35,917 bases of DNA from an uncultured Bacteroidota bacterium (GTDB lineage: Bacteria; Bacteroidota; Bacteroidia; Chitinophagales; Chitinophagaceae), in NCBI GenBank assembly GCA_903887005.1, contig CAISOH010000091.1, positions 1 to 35,917 of the forward strand, given 5' to 3'. The notes beneath the pieces are model-generated. The model had not been told where the DNA came from. It saw only the letters and a list, made by a program, of their open reading frames with translations, and did not search any database. This document shows positions 12,627 to 34,582 of this stretch, one piece after another. The stretch's first letter is position 1. The number at the start of each line of letters is the position of its first letter. The position numbers were made by a program, and so were the translations under genes.

Positions 12627-13895
12627 ATGCCGGTTACTAACATACCCCTTGCGGAGCGTGTCCGTCCAAAGTCTCTTGAAGAGTTTATAGGGCAGGAACA
12701 CCTGGTGGCTGCAGGCAAAGTACTGGAGCAAATGATACATGGAGGTAAGGGCCATTCCATTATTTTCTGGGGACCGCCGGGCGTGGGCAAAACCACACTC
12801 GCGCAGATAATAGCCCATTCATTAAACATGCCTTTCTTTACGCTCAGCGCAATAGATAGCGGCGTGAAAGATGTGCGCGCTGTAATAGAGCTGGCGCGCA
12901 GGAGCGGCCATGCGTTGTTATTCATTGATGAGATACACCGCTTTAATAAAGCGCAGCAGGATAGCCTGCTTGGAGCAGTGGAGAAGGGCATTATTACCTT
13001 AATAGGCGCTACCACAGAGAACCCGTCATTTGAAGTGATCAGCGCCTTGCTGAGCCGTTGCCAGGTATATATACTGAAACCACTGACTGAAGAAAATATG
13101 ATGGCCTTAGTGCGGCAGGCAATGGAAAAAGATAAATGGCTGGCCCAACAGCAGATCGTAATAAAAGAGTGGGAAGCCCTGCTGCAGCTTAGCGGCGGCG
13201 ACGCGCGCAGGTTATTGAATTTAGTGGAGCTGGTAGCGGCCTCATTGCAGGGAGAAGATAAGATGGTTACAAACGACATAGTGCAGGATATTGTTCAAAA
13301 GAAAATGGCTTTGTATGATAAGACCGGTGAGCAGCACTATGATATTATCTCGGCATTTATAAAATCCCTGCGAGGCAGTGATCCCAATGCGGCTGTGTAT
13401 TGGCTGGCAAGGATGATAGACGGCGGGGAAGACCCAAAGTTCATAGCGCGCCGCATGGTGATATTGGCAAGCGAAGATATCGGCAATGCCAATCCTAATG
13501 CGTTGCTGCTGGCAACAAGCTGTTTCCAGGCGGTAGAACTTATTGGTTATCCTGAATGCCGTATTATTCTTTCTCAGGCCGCCACTTATCTTGCATCTTC
13601 ACCAAAGAGTAATGCGGCATACATGGCTATAAATAATGCCCAGGCGCTTGTTGGCAAAACAGGTGATCTGCCGGTACCCCTGCCCATACGTAATGCACCT
13701 ACCGGGCTGATGAAAAAAATGGATTATGGCAAGGGCTATCAGTACGCGCATGATTTTCCGGGGAATTTTATTGACCAGGAATTTCTCCCGGATATGATCA
13801 AAGGCACCAAACTATATGATCCTGCAAATAATGCATCTGAAGCCAGAATCAGGGAATACCTGCGCAATTGCTGGAAGGATAAATACGGGTACTAA
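12627..13895 (+). CDS. rarA: Replication-associated recombination protein A (AAA+ ATPase)
   Basis: RarA (MgsA) is a DNA-dependent AAA+ ATPase that acts at stalled replication forks. The 422-residue length is typical. The sequence shows Walker A GPPGVGKTT (residues 49-57), Walker B FIDEIHRF (Asp101, Glu102), sensor 1 GATTENPSFEV, and the arginine finger region LSRCQ. It continues with sensor 2 GGDARRLLNLVE and the family-specific C-terminal tetramerisation domain (RGSDPNAAVYWLARMIDGGE and ILASEDIGNANP). The start at PVTNIPLAERVRPKSLEEF matches other RarA proteins. The palindromic repeat array begins three bases after the stop. Confidence 0.97.
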   Translation: MPVTNIPLAERVRPKSLEEFIGQEHLVAAGKVLEQMIHGGKGHSIIFWGPPGVGKTTLAQIIAHSLNMPFFTLSAIDSGVKDVRAVIELARRSGHALLFIDEIHRFNKAQQDSLLGAVEKGIITLIGATTENPSFEVISALLSRCQVYILKPLTEENMMALVRQAMEKDKWLAQQQIVIKEWEALLQLSGGDARRLLNLVELVAASLQGEDKMVTNDIVQDIVQKKMALYDKTGEQHYDIISAFIKSLRGSDPNAAVYWLARMIDGGEDPKFIARRMVILASEDIGNANPNALLLATSCFQAVELIGYPECRIILSQAATYLASSPKSNAAYMAINNAQALVGKTGDLPVPLPIRNAPTGLMKKMDYGKGYQYAHDFPGNFIDQEFLPDMIKGTKLYDPANNASEARIREYLRNCWKDKYGY

Positions 13896-13898
13896 GTT

Positions 13899-14081
13899 CC
13901 GATGGGCGTTGCCCATCGCTAACATATTCCGCCCTTTCAGGGCTTAACGGTGTTTTTTTATTTAACCGATGGGCGTTGCCCATCGCTATTCATATTTTGC
14001 CCCTTCAGGGCTCGGTAACGTTTGTTTTATTCCGATGGGCGTTGCCCATCGCTATTCATATTTTGCCCATTCAGGGCTTAA
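13899..14081. repeat. Three tandem palindromic repeat units (66-67 bp)
   Basis: Each unit starts with CCGATGGGCGTTGCCCATCG, an 8-bp perfect stem with a GTT loop, at 13899, 13966 and 14032. About 30 nt later comes a second smaller hairpin of the type GCCCTTTCAGGGC, perfect in unit 1 (13931-13943) and degraded in units 2 and 3. The spacers are T-rich. The array fills the gap between convergent rarA and the CAP-domain gene and may also stop transcription from both sides. Confidence 0.85.
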
Positions 14082-29812: not shown

Positions 29813-32296
29813 ATGAAGGCACTTAAAGCCATATTGGTAGTTTTATTAAGCTTATTTGCCGGTAATTGCCTGCACGCCCAAATGGTGAAGGATAACAGCA
29901 AATGGACCTTTGAAGCAAAGAAGAAAACCGGCAATCAATATGAACTTATCATTCACTTATCGCTGCCAGAAAAATGGCATATTTATTCATTAAAGCCGGG
30001 CGGCGATGGAATGGAACTTCCACCTTCATTTACTTTTAATAAAAACAGCCAGCTTAATCTTAATGGAGCCGTTAAAGAAAAAGGAAAACTCATCAGTGAG
30101 AAAATGGATGGGGTGGATGGTATCGTCAATATGTACAAAGGTAAAGTTGATTATACACAGATTGCCACTATTACCGGGAATACAAAAATATCAGGCACAT
30201 ACTCCTACCAGATTTGTAATGATTCCATGTGCCTGCCACCCACCACAAAGCCATTTTCTGTAGAGGTAAAGGATGCTGGCAACGCTACTACAACAAGTAC
30301 TACAACTGAAACTTCATTTGTTTCTTCATCAGATTCAGGAAAGAATAATAATACCACTAAAAATGGTGGTGCGATTGGAATTAATGGACTGCAACCCCAA
30401 ATGGTGATGGATAGCAGTAAATGGACCTTTGAAGCAAAAAAGAAAAGCGGCAACCAATATGAACTGATCATTCACGTATCGCTGCCTGAAAAATGGCATA
30501 TCTATTCACTAAATCCGGGTGGCGATAGTATGGAAACTCCTACTTCTTTTACTTTTAATAAGGACAGCCTGGTAACACTTAATGGCGTGGTCAAAGAAAA
30601 AGGAAAACTCATCAGTGAGAAGATGGTGGGCATTGAAGGTATCGTCAATATATTCAAAGGCAAAGTTGACTTTACCCAAGACGCAACAATTGCCGGTAAT
30701 ACAAAAATAACCGGCACATACAGCTACCAGATATGTAATGATGCCATGTGCCTGCCGCCTGCCACAAAATCATTTTCAATAGAGGTTAACGATACTGAAA
30801 AAGAATCTAAATCTTTACTCTGGTTGTTCCTCGCAGCATTAGGCGGAGGCCTTGCGGCTGTGCTGACTCCATGCGTGTATTCTATGATACCCATTACGGT
30901 CAGTTTCTTCACAAAAAGGAGCAAGACACGGGCTGAGGGTATTCGCAATGCCTTTTATTACTCCCTTTCCATCATTATTATTTTCACAGTACTGGGCGTA
31001 TTGATATCTGTGATATTCGGAGCCAATGCGCTGAATTCTCTTTCCACCAACTGGATCGCCAACCTGTTTTTCTTCATCATCTTCATCATCTTCGGCATAT
31101 CCTTTCTCGGGGCATTTGAGATCACGTTACCTTCTTCGTGGACCAGTAAAACTGATTCAAAAGCGGGTGTCGGAAGTTTCGGAGGAATATTTTTTATGGC
31201 GCTTACCCTTGCTATCGTATCCTTCTCCTGCACCGGCCCTATTGTAGGACCCTTGCTGGTATTAGCAGGCAAGGGCGGTATCGCAGGCCCGGCCTTGGGC
31301 ATGTTTGGCTTCTCCATAGGTTTGGCTTTGCCCTTTGCTTTGTTCGCCGTATTCCCCGGAATGCTCAATAAAATGGCGTCTTCCGGTGGCTGGCTCAACC
31401 AGGTTAAGGTGGTACTTGGGTTCCTGGAACTGATGCTGGCATTAAAATTCCTGTCAAATGCCGACCTCGCCATGGGCTGGCGTTTACTCGACCGGGAAAT
31501 ATTCATTGCCATATGGATAGTATTGTCTGTATTACTTGGTTTCTACCTATTGGGCAAGCTACAGTTATCACACGACGACGCCCCGGTTAAGAATATTTAC
31601 GGGCAGGAATATGTTTCTATTTTCAAGCTATTCCTTGCCATCGCCGTATTCACATTCTCTGTCTATTTATTGCCGGGCATGTGGGGCGCACCTTTAAATG
31701 GCATGAGCGCCTTTTTGCCACCATCAGGCACTTTTGAAACATTTGGCGGAGGTGGCACTGCTTCACCATCAGGCAGTGAAAACAATAACGGAGCTAAACC
31801 CATGAAGTATGCCGCTGACATGAAGATCTATGAGCCGCCCGTGGTCAAGAATCTTGGATTGGTTACCTATTTCGATTATGATGAAGCCCTGGCAGCTTCT
31901 AAAAAACTGAAAAAGCCCATCATGCTCGATTTTACCGGTATCAATTGTGTTAATTGCCGTAAAATGGAATCGCAGGTATGGTCCCAGCCGGAAGTAGCCA
32001 AAAGGCTCAAAGAAGACTTTATAGTTGTTTCCCTGTACTGCGACCTGAACCGGATAGAGCTGCCGAAAGAACAGCAATATTTTTCAAAAGACCTTGGTTC
32101 ACAGGTTACGACTTTGGGCAATAAAAACGCTGACCTGCAGGCTTCTAAATTTGGTTCAAATTCCCAACCCTTCTACTTCTATGTGGATGAAAACGGCAAT
32201 AAACTTGTGGAAGAAGGCTACTCTTATGATCCTGATGTGCAGAAATTTATTGACCACCTGGATAGGGTGAAAGCTAACTATAAGAAGGCGCATTGA
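29813..32296 (+). CDS. dsbD: Thiol:disulfide interchange protein DsbD with duplicated alpha domain
   Basis: This 827-residue DsbD-type protein moves electrons from cytoplasmic thioredoxin across the inner membrane to periplasmic partners. After a signal peptide (cleaved near residue 22), two alpha-like domains lie at about 23-155 and 196-328, with Cys135/Cys140 and Cys308/Cys313 in QICNDxMCLPP. A Ser/Thr/Asn-rich linker joins them. The membrane domain (about 335-640) carries the redox Cys354 in LTPCVYSMIP and Cys473 in FSCTGPIVG. The C-terminal thioredoxin-like gamma domain has Cys712/Cys715 in GINCVNCRKME. Usual DsbD proteins have only one alpha domain. The extra copy arose from a 519-bp in-frame duplication still readable in the DNA. 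Together with the upstream gene, three alpha domains are available for one membrane domain. Confidence 0.95.
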   Translation: MKALKAILVVLLSLFAGNCLHAQMVKDNSKWTFEAKKKTGNQYELIIHLSLPEKWHIYSLKPGGDGMELPPSFTFNKNSQLNLNGAVKEKGKLISEKMDGVDGIVNMYKGKVDYTQIATITGNTKISGTYSYQICNDSMCLPPTTKPFSVEVKDAGNATTTSTTTETSFVSSSDSGKNNNTTKNGGAIGINGLQPQMVMDSSKWTFEAKKKSGNQYELIIHVSLPEKWHIYSLNPGGDSMETPTSFTFNKDSLVTLNGVVKEKGKLISEKMVGIEGIVNIFKGKVDFTQDATIAGNTKITGTYSYQICNDAMCLPPATKSFSIEVNDTEKESKSLLWLFLAALGGGLAAVLTPCVYSMIPITVSFFTKRSKTRAEGIRNAFYYSLSIIIIFTVLGVLISVIFGANALNSLSTNWIANLFFFIIFIIFGISFLGAFEITLPSSWTSKTDSKAGVGSFGGIFFMALTLAIVSFSCTGPIVGPLLVLAGKGGIAGPALGMFGFSIGLALPFALFAVFPGMLNKMASSGGWLNQVKVVLGFLELMLALKFLSNADLAMGWRLLDREIFIAIWIVLSVLLGFYLLGKLQLSHDDAPVKNIYGQEYVSIFKLFLAIAVFTFSVYLLPGMWGAPLNGMSAFLPPSGTFETFGGGGTASPSGSENNNGAKPMKYAADMKIYEPPVVKNLGLVTYFDYDEALAASKKLKKPIMLDFTGINCVNCRKMESQVWSQPEVAKRLKEDFIVVSLYCDLNRIELPKEQQYFSKDLGSQVTTLGNKNADLQASKFGSNSQPFYFYVDENGNKLVEEGYSYDPDVQKFIDHLDRVKANYKKAH
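29877..30794 (+). repeat. 519-bp in-frame duplication in dsbD
   Basis: Bases 29877-30275 and 30396-30794 are clearly related copies, offset by 519 bp (173 codons), that encode the two alpha domains. Long identical words persist, for example in the WTFEAKKK and PEKWHIYSL regions. The about 120-bp spacer between copies is unrelated Ser/Thr-rich linker. The closeness points to a recent duplication. Confidence 0.85.
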
Positions 32297-32341
32297 TGGT
32301 TAATGGCTTAATTAATGTGGCAATGTGGTTAATGTGAAAGT
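32297..32341. repeat. TTAATG/AATGTGG tract after dsbD
   Basis: The words GGTTAATGGCTTAATTAATG and AATGTGGTTAATGTGAAAG form a simple repeat that starts directly after the dsbD stop codon. It is the reverse complement of the family at 735-832. Confidence 0.55.
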
Positions 32342-32381: not shown

Positions 32382-32429
32382 GTTTGTTGTCTGAACCTCA
32401 GATTAACCGAGATTCACCTGATTTACTGA
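32382..32429. repeat. Left inverted repeat framing the GxxExxY gene
   Basis: A 48-bp arm that includes CTGAACCTCAGATTAACCGA is matched in inverted orientation by 32943-32991 on the other side of the gene. There is one substitution and one single-base indel. The two arms sit about 98 bp before the ATG and 14 bp after the stop. Confidence 0.85.
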
Positions 32430-32526
32430 TTCATTTTCCTGAAAAACACGAATTATCTGTGGTTATCATGATTTGCTAATTATTATTTTTTTGTGGATTA
32501 TTTATATTTTAGTAAAAAATAATTTT

Positions 32527-32928
32527 ATGGAATATAAACATTCAGAAATGACAAGCACTGTTATTGCGGCAGCAATGGAAGTACATAAAGAAATGGGTTG
32601 CGGATTTCAGGAGGTTATATATCAACGTGCTTTAGAAATAGAATTTGCCTTTCGAAAAATGTCTTTTTCAAGAGAATTGGAAATGATAGTGTTTTATAAA
32701 CATATCGAAGTAGGGCAAAGAAGGGTTGACTTTCTTGTAAATAATATTATCTCAGTTGAATTGAAAGCGCTAACCAAATTAGAGGATGTACACCTTACTC
32801 AAGCATTAAATTATCTTGAAGCTTATAATCTTGAAGTAGGATTACTAATAAATTTTGGCGCCAAAAGTTTAGAAATAAAACGTTTGTACAACAAGAAATT
32901 TAATCCTGCTGCCAGTAATAAAAAATAA
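32527..32928 (+). CDS. GxxExxY protein (PD-(D/E)xK nuclease-like fold)
   Basis: The 133-residue protein has the family motif GFQEVIY (Gly26, Glu29, Tyr32). A PD-(D/E)xK-like catalytic pattern follows at Asp68, Glu78 and Lys80 in RRVDFLVNNIISVELKAL, with Gln92 in LTQALNYL. GxxExxY proteins are related to the PD-(D/E)xK nuclease superfamily, and their role is not established. The ATG at 32527 (MEYKHSEM) is preferred over an upstream TTG, which would add 18 residues of unlikely hydrophobic sequence. The gene is bracketed by 48-bp inverted repeats, and a diverged copy of the repeat lies at 261-308, so gene plus repeats may form a mobile unit. No transposase is present. Confidence 0.88.
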   Translation: MEYKHSEMTSTVIAAAMEVHKEMGCGFQEVIYQRALEIEFAFRKMSFSRELEMIVFYKHIEVGQRRVDFLVNNIISVELKALTKLEDVHLTQALNYLEAYNLEVGLLINFGAKSLEIKRLYNKKFNPAASNKK

Positions 32929-32942
32929 TCTGAAATTCCGCC

Positions 32943-32991
32943 TCAGTAAATCAGGTTAATCTCGGTTAATCTGAGGTTCAGACAAACAAAC
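32943..32991. repeat. Right inverted repeat framing the GxxExxY gene
   Basis: This is the inverted counterpart of 32382-32429, starting 14 bp after the GxxExxY stop codon. It contains ATC-rich sub-units (TAAATCAGG, TTAATCTCGG, TTAATCTGAGG) that also occur at 261-308. Confidence 0.85.
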
Positions 32992-33025
32992 AGCTTTTAG
33001 GATAAAAACCTAACGCAAACACACT

Positions 33026-34582
33026 ATGATAAAAACAATTTCGCTTTCTTTAATTCCGGCGGATGCTGCTAATGAGCAAGCCATAAAAAGCAGTATTGCC
33101 GATGAATGTAGTATTAGCCCCAATAGAATAACAGGTTATTCTATTCAGAAGCACTCTATTGATGCACGTGCAAAGCAGGCGAGAATCATTTTGCAGGTAT
33201 TGGTTTTTATTGATGAGCAGGTAATGGAAGCGCCTGTATTTGACCCACAATTAAGAGATGTTTCAAATGCCCCTCATGTCGTCATTGTGGGGGCAGGGCC
33301 GGCGGGATTGTTTGCCGCATTAAGGCTGATTACGCTTGGTTACAAGCCTGTAATATTAGAACGTGGAAAAGATGTTCGCCGCCGCCGCAGAGACCTTGCC
33401 ATTATGAATAAGGAGGGTATTGTAAATCCTGAATCTAATTACTGCTTTGGAGAGGGCGGTGCAGGCACTTACAGCGATGGCAAATTATACACCCGGTCCA
33501 CCAAGCGCGGCAATGTGCTACGAATACTTCAATTATTCCATCATTTCGGAGCGGACGCGGACATACTATATGAAGCCCATCCGCATATAGGTACTAATAA
33601 ACTGCCGCAGATAATTACGGCAATGCGTGAACAAATTATTGCCTGTGGCGGGGAAGTACTGTTTGAAACGAAACTTACAGATATATTGCTCAATGGCGAT
33701 ACTATTGCTGGTGTTAAAACTGCCGGTGGTAAGACGATAACATGCAATGCCGTAATACTTGCTACCGGCCATTCCGCCCACGATATTTTCACACTGTTAC
33801 ACCATAAATGTATTGCCATAGAATGTAAGCCATTTGCATTAGGCGTGCGCATAGAGCATCCACAACTGCTCATAGACCAGTCGCAATACCATTGCACCAC
33901 CCGCGACCCTTTTTTACCGCCTGCGAGCTATTCCGTGGTAGCGCAGGAAAACGGAAGAGGGGTATTCTCTTTCTGCATGTGCCCCGGAGGCATTATAGCC
34001 CCTGCGGCTACTGCACCTGGAGAGATAGTGGTAAATGGGTGGTCTCCATCGAAACGAAACAATGCTTTTGCAAATTCAGGAACCGTGGTAGCTGTTGACG
34101 AGCGGGACTTTGCGACTTATAAATTCACGGGGCCGCTTGCGGCCATGCATTACCAGCAAATGGTGGAACAACGCGCTTACCATATTGGCGGCGGCAAGCT
34201 GATAGCTCCCGCCCAGCGCATGGCCGACTTTGCTGACGGCAAAATATCATCTATCCTACCCGACTGCTCTTATATACCTGGTATTCACAGCGCAGCAATA
34301 AGCGATGTGTTGCCCAAAGAAGTGAATGCAGCATTAAAGAAGGCGGTTGTTGATTTTGGCAAAAAAATGAAAGGCTACTTTACCAATGAAGCCGTGCTGG
34401 TAGCCACAGAATCACGCACCAGTTCACCTGTCCGGATTCCACGCGATAAGGATACTTTGCAGCATACACAAATTAAGGGTCTATATCCCTGTGCGGAAGG
34501 GGCAGGTTATGCCGGAGGAATAGTATCTGCCGCTATTGACGGGGAGCGCTGTGCTGAAGCGGCTGTTATAAAGTGGCTGTAA
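33026..34582 (+). CDS. HI0933-like NAD(P)/FAD-dependent oxidoreductase
   Basis: This 518-residue flavoprotein resembles the large cytosolic FAD-binding proteins often annotated as NAD(P)/FAD-dependent oxidoreductases (uncharacterised FAD-utilising dehydrogenases). After about 80 residues of N-terminal domain (DARAKQARIILQVLVF), the Rossmann fold appears as VVIVGAGPAGLFAALR (GxGxxG at 89-94) with the ribose-binding Glu112 in VILERGKDVRRRRRD. A loop GEGGAGTYSDGKLYTR, a second motif NAVILATGHSAHD, and a C-terminal FAD cap (ATESRTSSPVRIPR and YPCAEGAGYAGGIVSAAIDG) follow. The physiological substrate is unknown. It ends 3 bp before the opposing YD-repeat gene. Confidence 0.9.
   Translation: MIKTISLSLIPADAANEQAIKSSIADECSISPNRITGYSIQKHSIDARAKQARIILQVLVFIDEQVMEAPVFDPQLRDVSNAPHVVIVGAGPAGLFAALRLITLGYKPVILERGKDVRRRRRDLAIMNKEGIVNPESNYCFGEGGAGTYSDGKLYTRSTKRGNVLRILQLFHHFGADADILYEAHPHIGTNKLPQIITAMREQIIACGGEVLFETKLTDILLNGDTIAGVKTAGGKTITCNAVILATGHSAHDIFTLLHHKCIAIECKPFALGVRIEHPQLLIDQSQYHCTTRDPFLPPASYSVVAQENGRGVFSFCMCPGGIIAPAATAPGEIVVNGWSPSKRNNAFANSGTVVAVDERDFATYKFTGPLAAMHYQQMVEQRAYHIGGGKLIAPAQRMADFADGKISSILPDCSYIPGIHSAAISDVLPKEVNAALKKAVVDFGKKMKGYFTNEAVLVATESRTSSPVRIPRDKDTLQHTQIKGLYPCAEGAGYAGGIVSAAIDGERCAEAAVIKWL

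Follow-up and report, generated by a model that had tools for sequence, protein, structure and literature searches.

The window analysed here is a stretch of 35,917 nt from contig CAISOH010000091.1 of an uncultured Chitinophagaceae bacterium (GenBank assembly GCA_903887005.1). The locus of interest within it consists of one small gene of the GxxExxY family that is enclosed by two long inverted repeats (hereafter, arms) and located between a DsbD-like gene and a gene for an FAD-dependent oxidoreductase. The features of this locus are:

29813..32296, + strand: DsbD-like gene, the upstream neighbour, co-directional with the cassette gene; its stop codon ends 85 nt 5' of the left arm
32382..32429, + strand: left arm, with the constant end TTGTCTGAAC at 32387-32396 and GATT words at 32401, 32411 and 32420 (steps of 10 and 9)
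32527..32928, + strand: GxxExxY gene, 133 aa, PD-(D/E)xK nuclease (D68, E78, K80) of the class-1 subfamily
32943..32991, - strand: right arm, identical to the left arm in inverted orientation except for one substitution and one indel
33026..34582, + strand: FAD-dependent oxidoreductase gene, the downstream neighbour, co-directional; this gene and the DsbD-like gene delimit the host junction, which is empty in several relatives

The two arms align over 48 of 49 nt and differ by one substitution and a single 1-nt indel, which agrees with the near-perfect inverted repeats described in a first-pass annotation of this DNA; their ungapped core is 43 nt long (98% identical), and their local-alignment score is 44, as compared with no more than 22 in any of 100 base shuffles. 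The arm core CTCAGATTAACCGAGATT (≤3 mismatches) occurs at exactly two sites in the window, i.e., the two arms, with 0.01 sites expected from dinucleotide shuffles. When the cassette is folded as RNA, a value of -183 kcal/mol is obtained (z -14.3; 0/20 shuffles as low), and the cassette has an inverted repeat at either end and an ORF in the loop between them. The single intact GxxExxY gene with Asp68, Glu78 and Lys80 that the same annotation had reported corresponds to the ORF starting at ATG 32527; while the ORF list gives an alternative start at TTG 32473, ATG 32527 is the start common to close relatives, yields 133 aa up to the stop codon at 32926-32928, matches the numbering of the three residues and is probably the true gene start. 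In a Pfam scan of the cassette ORF and its two neighbours, the only proteins scanned, no transposase was found, again as first described, and this includes Y1 HUH transposases; neither the DsbD-like nor the FAD gene is a cas gene, and identity of the window ORF as S23p was excluded by its sole Pfam match, PF13366. There was no rRNA family match across the window, the cassette being located between the DsbD-like and FAD genes, and an Rfam scan of the cassette returned just two sub-threshold snoRNA matches, which were taken as chance.

Just 5' of the oxidoreductase start, at 32993-33017, lies a motif, GCTTTTAGGATAAA(A/C)ACCTAACGCA, that is common to many genomes of the genus and is missing from G025 and G028, where the cassette abuts the start codon, as well as from some other genomes; Rfam gave no match at 32993-33017, and the motif may represent a short leader element. 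At 32297-32336, 3' of the dsbD stop codon and 5' of the left arm, a sequence containing TTAATGGCTTAATTAATG is similar to the iterons at S23p genes of the same genome (L236, L238); it may be what is left of a different cassette at the dsbD|FAD junction. Elsewhere in the window, an Acido-Lenti-1 RNA match above the gathering score is located at 13900-13944, directly 3' of an ORF at 12627-13895.

The window protein matches TIGR04256 (E 3.2e-37, 127.4 bits; curated cut-off 35) and PF13366 (E 1.3e-36, 125.9 bits; cut-off 22). An alignment of 64 sequences, with that of the window among them, shows no variation at D68 and E78 and has K80 in at least 90%, and an AlphaFold model built from 64 sequences (pLDDT 93, pTM 0.86) places D68, E78 and K80 on two successive strands, in line with the PD-(D/E)xK-like pattern initially noted. 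The best PDB fold match of this model is the Cas4 protein SSO0001 (4ic1; E 3e-4, TM 0.56), and a further match is lambda exonuclease (3slp; E 3e-3); a PDB sequence search with the window protein gave no match at E ≤1. With dN/dS at 0.03-0.10 in the four of ten pairs with unsaturated dS (dS being >1 in three of these), purifying selection on GxxExxY genes is supported. Eight plasmid records matched the window protein and no phage record did so at E 1e-5; in the open-access literature searched by family name and accessions, no mobile role for this family is described in the portions consulted.

Inverted-repeat framing recurs in this family. The window's genome carries six GxxExxY genes, and all six are flanked by inverted repeats that score above 100 base shuffles of their own flanks. 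Among the 35 genomes of the genus, mostly fragmented into tens to hundreds of contigs, 29 contain between one and seven GxxExxY matches each (fragments included). Fifty of the 55 genus loci were tested (L041 and L052 were left out for short flanks and L061-L063 as partial or broken; G015:C447, G022:C290 and fragment rows are also outside the counts), and inverted repeats scoring ≥20 and ≥24 were found at 38/50 and 31/50, respectively; the search of related genomes that the first-pass annotation had proposed thus did find that the repeats recur. Among genus controls, these scores were reached by 4/362 and 0/362 slid pseudo-genes (in loci >5 kb), by 0/53 and 0/53 other ORFs and, as a family control, by 1/30 and 0/30 ParE genes; the ParE set, like the S23p (35), GIY-YIG (30) and phylum-sample (30) sets considered below, comprises best matches, mostly one per genome, with many more S23p, ParE and GIY-YIG genes available. 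For named GxxExxY loci, which were picked by similarity to the six proteins of the window's genome and from which seven gene records with short flanks had been dropped, 39/75 records scored ≥20 and 20/75 scored ≥24 (35/71 and 19/71 without four duplicates of genus loci), with slid controls at 19/540 and 2/540. The four duplicates (L152, L161, L165, L184) are included in the 75-record, 123-record and named slid-control counts and excluded from the arm-similarity, orientation, tree, arm-class and non-duplicate counts. In a phylum-wide sample, GxxExxY genes were found in 74 of 148 genomes, and 15 and 12 of 29 usable loci, from the 30 best-scoring ones (L428 dropped), scored ≥20 and ≥24. Scores below 20 were obtained for 12/50 genus genes, 36/71 non-duplicate named genes and 14/29 phylum-sample loci. 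A scan of 522 short ORFs (approximately 836 kb) yielded six with a score ≥24, namely three GxxExxY genes (the window's included), one S23p gene, one GIY-YIG gene and one diffuse case, and five in the band from 20 to 22, among them a fourth GxxExxY gene with a score of 21; the stretches scanned had partly been picked for known cassettes, and the scan is free of bias solely with respect to the other ORFs that have such framing.

The arms are built up of arrayed 8-10-bp words. Class-1 arms consist of TTGTCTGAAC or TTGTCTGAAT, 3-4 nt, and GATT words whose successive spacings are mostly 9, 8 or 9, and 9 (n = 153 arms); in class-2 arms, the arrayed words are CGCAAAG, CACAAAG or CACAGAG. Of 123 gene records, 73 have an inward class-1 arm upstream and 79 have one downstream (both sides, 63; one side only, 26; none, 34); for the 119 non-duplicate records these counts are 70 and 76 (both, 60; one, 26; none, 33). 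The density in distant flanks predicts 0.015 class-1 arms per 600 bp and orientation. The detectors behind these counts and behind the arm-class calls that follow had been tuned on arms already seen in part of the loci tested. With a class-1 call requiring an arm on one side and a class-2 call word pairs on both sides, 38 loci with the LGPG motif showed class-2 arms in 21 cases, class-1 arms in none and neither in 17, and 112 non-LGPG loci showed class-1 arms in 86 cases, class-2 arms in none and neither in 26. Arm class could thus be set against protein subfamily at 107 of 150 loci, with no crossing, the remaining 43 having neither class; class-2 word pairs were found at 0/30 ParE controls. 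A protein tree, with few columns and many open forks, parts the two subfamilies, and the class-1 label is only partly clustered on its side of that tree (23 changes, as compared with 34.1 in shuffles). Specificity of the arm type for the protein subfamily is, on these comparisons, supported. The class-1 end is also present at loci from Calditrichota, Ignavibacteriota and Chlorobiota and, on one side only, from Myxococcota; variants of the constant end were seen at three of four Chloroflexota loci (GTCTTAAC) and at a Fibrobacterota locus (TTGTCAGAAC), and a strict detector found no class-1 end at L134, L175, L135, L157, L179 and L194.

Arm similarity beyond the constant end correlates with protein similarity among 61 two-armed cassettes (r 0.513; reached by 0/2000 permutations), and removal of 80 pairs with homologous flanking ORFs leaves r at 0.494 over 1750 pairs (0/2000 permutations). 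For 44 pairs in which protein similarity is ≥0.8 and flank homology was not detected, similarity between the arms of different cassettes equals that between the two arms of one cassette (15.3 in both cases; overall, 8.9). Since arm similarity tracks protein similarity in the absence of flank homology, arms and gene behave as one unit at unrelated loci; the correlation indicates linkage of this unit and is not by itself proof of recognition. We rejected the idea that the gene fell into a host repeat, as the arms track the protein rather than the genome (similarity of 6.5 between arms of the same genome, from only five such pairs, versus 8.95 between genomes). No near-identical copies at two different loci were found among 134 gene records; the 60 top pairs examined for recent copies were four duplicates of one locus from two collections, syntenic orthologues, and cases of gene-limited interspecies similarity of ≤87%. 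Many cassettes are inherited in place, as is the window's own, in G025 and G028.

With regard to position, 82 of 130 GxxExxY records are co-directional with both neighbours, 3 are opposite to both, 24 are mixed and 21 are not scorable, as compared with 275 co-directional, 74 opposite and 302 mixed among 651 background ORFs; flanking genes were taken as long ORFs rather than annotated genes. The phylum-sample GxxExxY genes (n = 29) gave 23 co-directional, no opposite and 6 mixed cases. The corresponding counts, including those not scorable, were 27, 0, 3 and 2 for S23p genes (n = 32), 6, 6, 15 and 1 for ParE genes (n = 28), and 10, 3, 15 and 1 for GIY-YIG genes (n = 29), with L249, L254 and L267 (S23p), L271 and L289 (ParE) and L363 (GIY-YIG) not listed for reasons of contig ends or broken frames.

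Two junctions allowed a comparison with gene-free loci, as had been suggested in the first-pass annotation, and both include empty and solo-arm states. A dsbD-like end lies upstream in 15 of 30 fetched FAD loci, an assignment made partly by eye from cross-frame matches and junction sequences (in L098 and L102, where the dsbD match is located at a greater distance upstream, the dsbD-like end that adjoins the junction was identified visually). With state labels other than gene matches also assigned by eye, three of the 15 junctions are filled (the window, G025 and G028), one carries a solo arm (G033), eight are empty, two contain S23p-type arrays (G030, G032) and one a GIY-type palindrome (G008). 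At the second junction, moaA is located upstream in 16 of 30 moeA loci; four of these are filled, by one lineage in G025 and G033 (88% identical) and by another in G019 and G008 (85%), with 55-56% identity between the G019 protein and the G025/G033 lineage. The others comprise three with solo arms (G028, G022, G010), one with an S23p-type array (the window's genome), one with a GIY-type palindrome (G024) and seven empty junctions, in which the genes are 4-46 nt apart. As the two cassette lineages lie in different parts of the protein tree, at least two events filled the moaA|moeA junction. The G008 cassette at this junction (L379, G008:C33) is inverted relative to its operon, while its 85%-identical G019 counterpart is in forward orientation, and the former may reflect an inversion between the arms. 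No target-site duplication was seen by eye at either dsbD|FAD or moaA|moeA, where the empty junctions are strongly diverged; the comparison of cognate sites, one of sequence alone, comprises filled and empty junctions and the two moaA|moeA lineages.

Arm sites also occur apart from the gene. Sites matching TGTCTGAAY-N2-8-GATT are present in 34 of 35 genus genomes (0-55 each, as compared with 0-3 for the reversed pattern; in G013 the count is no higher than this control), with 2-55 sites in the six genomes without a GxxExxY match and 0-42 in the 29 with one. The window's genome has 41 such sites for six GxxExxY genes, G011 has 55 sites and no gene match, and G007 has gene matches and no sites. 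In two G011 loci (L207, G011:C43; L208, G011:C76), a unit of approximately 195 bp with a class-1 arm in it is arrayed in tandem. The solo arms inspected are nearly all single. The possibility that they represent hairpin MITEs was rejected, as among 72 arm records (some in two overlapping loci) clear inverted partners were seen only for L025 and L234, both of which are GxxExxY loci. Single arms hardly fold; five of the six that were folded did no better than shuffles (z -0.8 to +1.1) and are not palindromic single repeats of the REP type, and the right arm of the window gave z -3.0.

Many genes of a second family, S23p (PF05635), are framed in a similar manner. In the window's genome all six S23p genes lie within inverted arrays, and in the genus 22/34 (these six included; L243 dropped) score ≥20 and 17/34 score ≥24; the framing words, mostly 7-8 bp, differ from the GxxExxY iterons, and four genus S23p genes, with scores of 11-13, showed no arrays. 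These free-standing S23p genes (L235-L240, L241-L269), which encode a four-helix bundle, are often framed and mostly co-directional with their neighbours. Of 30 GIY-YIG genes (L340-L369), 10 score ≥24, several having palindromic repeats (e.g., TCATGGTGAGC...GAACCATGACA) and at least one (L342) being diffuse. Since S23p cassettes share the plan without a nuclease, a nuclease is no general requirement for it, and this is the strongest reason for retaining the RNA-level and trans-acting alternatives considered below; the S23p framing also provides a link to rRNA intervening sequences (IVSs).

We propose, as a reading that we consider about equally apt to prove right or wrong in its entirety, that the locus is a minimal mobile, IVS-like cassette of inverted iteron arms and a single Cas4/lambda-exonuclease-like PD-(D/E)xK nuclease that acts via its own arms. 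Its parts differ in strength: mobility of the cassette as a unit is well supported by the sequence comparisons, and the nuclease probably acts on its own arms, a role that we infer. Under this proposal, the cassette would settle in the gap that separates a stop codon from the start codon of the following gene, usually co-directionally with both genes, such that the cassette gene would putatively be read through from the host operon and the arms could pair in the transcript. The nuclease would recognise its own iteron arms and cut there or at related sites, the cassette would be copied in through repair of the cut or template switching, and incomplete events would leave dispersed solo arms. The first-pass annotation had suggested a mobile, homing-like or trans-moved unit; recurrent framing, cassette-free junctions and arms that travel with the gene speak for this suggestion, and gene-free arm sites speak against it. 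That annotation had also named repeats occurring equally often without the gene, and without empty-site junctions, as evidence against mobility; the former is partly the case, given 2-55 sites in six gene-free genomes, but empty junctions exist. Its notion of a selfish nuclease cassette with the repeat as target or substrate had missed the subfamily-specific iteron arms, the mostly co-directional siting and the S23p genes with the same framing. More tentatively, and with somewhat less confidence than would be needed to favour it, we suggest a widespread class of transposase-free mobile units in which a small protein (PD-(D/E)xK, S23p, perhaps GIY-YIG) is enclosed by protein-specific inverted iteron arrays, co-directionally at operon stop/start junctions, with rRNA IVSs as best-known members and with the enclosed protein driving spread by binding or cutting its own iterons.

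An unlikely but serious alternative is an RNA-level, IVS-like parasite, in which the arms would form a transcript hairpin (an RNase III site or insulator) that renders insertion into an operon harmless, the protein would be a passenger or hairpin binder, and movement would depend on host repair or a reverse transcriptase. The similar framing of S23p genes by other iterons (6/6 in the window's genome, 22/34 in the genus), the ratios of co-directional to opposite orientation (82:3 for GxxExxY, 27:0 for S23p), the strong RNA fold of the cassette (z -14.3) and the poor folding of single arms (five of six) are consistent with this explanation, as is the Coxiella IVS, in which, according to the part of the report consulted, an S23p ORF lies in a loop between terminal inverted repeats and is accompanied by heptamers (PMC4990558). 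It accounts poorly, however, for an arm class that tracks the nuclease subfamily, for conserved catalytic residues, for a cassette that is inverted in its operon (L379) and for dispersed single arms, with which a hairpin is impossible. Rather improbable in our view is mobilisation in trans, by which a recombinase that recognises the arms would move a MITE-like unit with the nuclease as cargo. Such a mechanism could explain 41 arm sites for six genes in the window's genome, sites in genomes without the gene, and the occurrence of three unrelated families (GxxExxY, S23p and GIY-YIG) in inverted repeats, but subfamily-specific arms would demand a separate trans factor for each, and the constant end recurs in Calditrichota, Ignavibacteriota and Chlorobiota and, as GTCTTAAC, in Chloroflexota. 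We give still less credence to a resident intercistronic regulatory module, with the arms as binding or processing sites and a nuclease that regulates the operon or defends the cell; purifying selection, retention at the same junctions in several species and the position beside stop and start codons would fit such a module, while its patchy presence (29/35 genus genomes with 1-7 matches, 74/148 genomes of the phylum sample), the variety of its host operons, the existence of empty junctions and the filling of one junction by two lineages argue against it. Finally, we assign a negligible probability to chance, or to a common terminator-like palindrome that surrounds a short gene, as, even with slid controls reaching ≥20 in 19/540 and ≥24 in 2/540 cases, framing recurs far above controls, the arm core is otherwise absent from the window, arm class is tied to protein subfamily, and five of six single arms fold no better than shuffles, on which ground the terminator reading was rejected.

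Several known systems resemble the proposed cassette in part. In REP elements with RAYT transposases, likewise, a gene is flanked on both sides by a repeat in inverted orientation, further copies of which are scattered singly through the genome. The GxxExxY gene shares both the flanking inverted copies and the dispersed singles, but the window cassette has no Y1 HUH transposase and its class of single arms hardly folds. Cas4 and lambda exonuclease, the best PDB fold matches of the window model, have chains of approximately 200-230 aa, as opposed to 133 aa here, and the window gene is standalone, its two neighbours not being cas genes. MITEs and IS elements share inverted ends and gene-free copies; in contrast to these, the window cassette has no transposase gene between its arms, no target duplication was seen, and the arms are iterons specific to the passenger's subfamily. 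A Bacteroidota MITE with ends derived from an IS982-family element (PMC9769881) was considered as the same element and, from the part of that report available to us, set aside as a different thing. Rpn/YhgA-like proteins (PF04754) are small PD-(D/E)xK nucleases that have been proposed to function in gene acquisition; independent rpnC insertions at the same place are reported, and neither the abstract nor the outline of the report consulted mentions inverted iteron arms (PMC5350276); they belong to a Pfam family different from that of the window protein, which matches only PF13366. In Nostoc, TDNGATT repeats build the stem of trnL P6b and TAACTGA repeats are dispersed between genes; these resemble the arms in being short GATT-like or 7-bp words, but no enclosed nuclease gene is described in the parts of these reports consulted (PMC4476775, PMC4679880).

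The closest likeness is to rRNA IVSs. In the IVS of Coxiella 23S rRNA, terminal inverted repeats form a 28-bp stem whose loop contains a small S23p ORF, with heptamers close to the start codon; mobility of this IVS is suspected, and the function and origin of such IVSs are termed unclear in the sections consulted (PMC4990558). Terminal inverted repeats, one small ORF in the loop and short repeated words are thus common to this IVS and the window cassette, whereas here the host site is a protein operon, the ORF encodes a PD-(D/E)xK nuclease and the arms consist of arrayed iterons and a constant TTGTCTGAAC end. The anatomy of IVSs is therefore already known; within the open-access literature, as far as it was consulted, we found neither a nuclease-bearing operon version nor a description of the iteron-framed architecture or of the arm strings. 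Each nuclease is paired with a presumed target in its own arms, which provides ready test pairs. If the cassette reading holds, it would describe a DNA unit able to spread through operons without a recognised transposase, and it would give the GxxExxY family, present in 74 of 148 genomes of the phylum sample, both a biological role and a link to rRNA IVSs.
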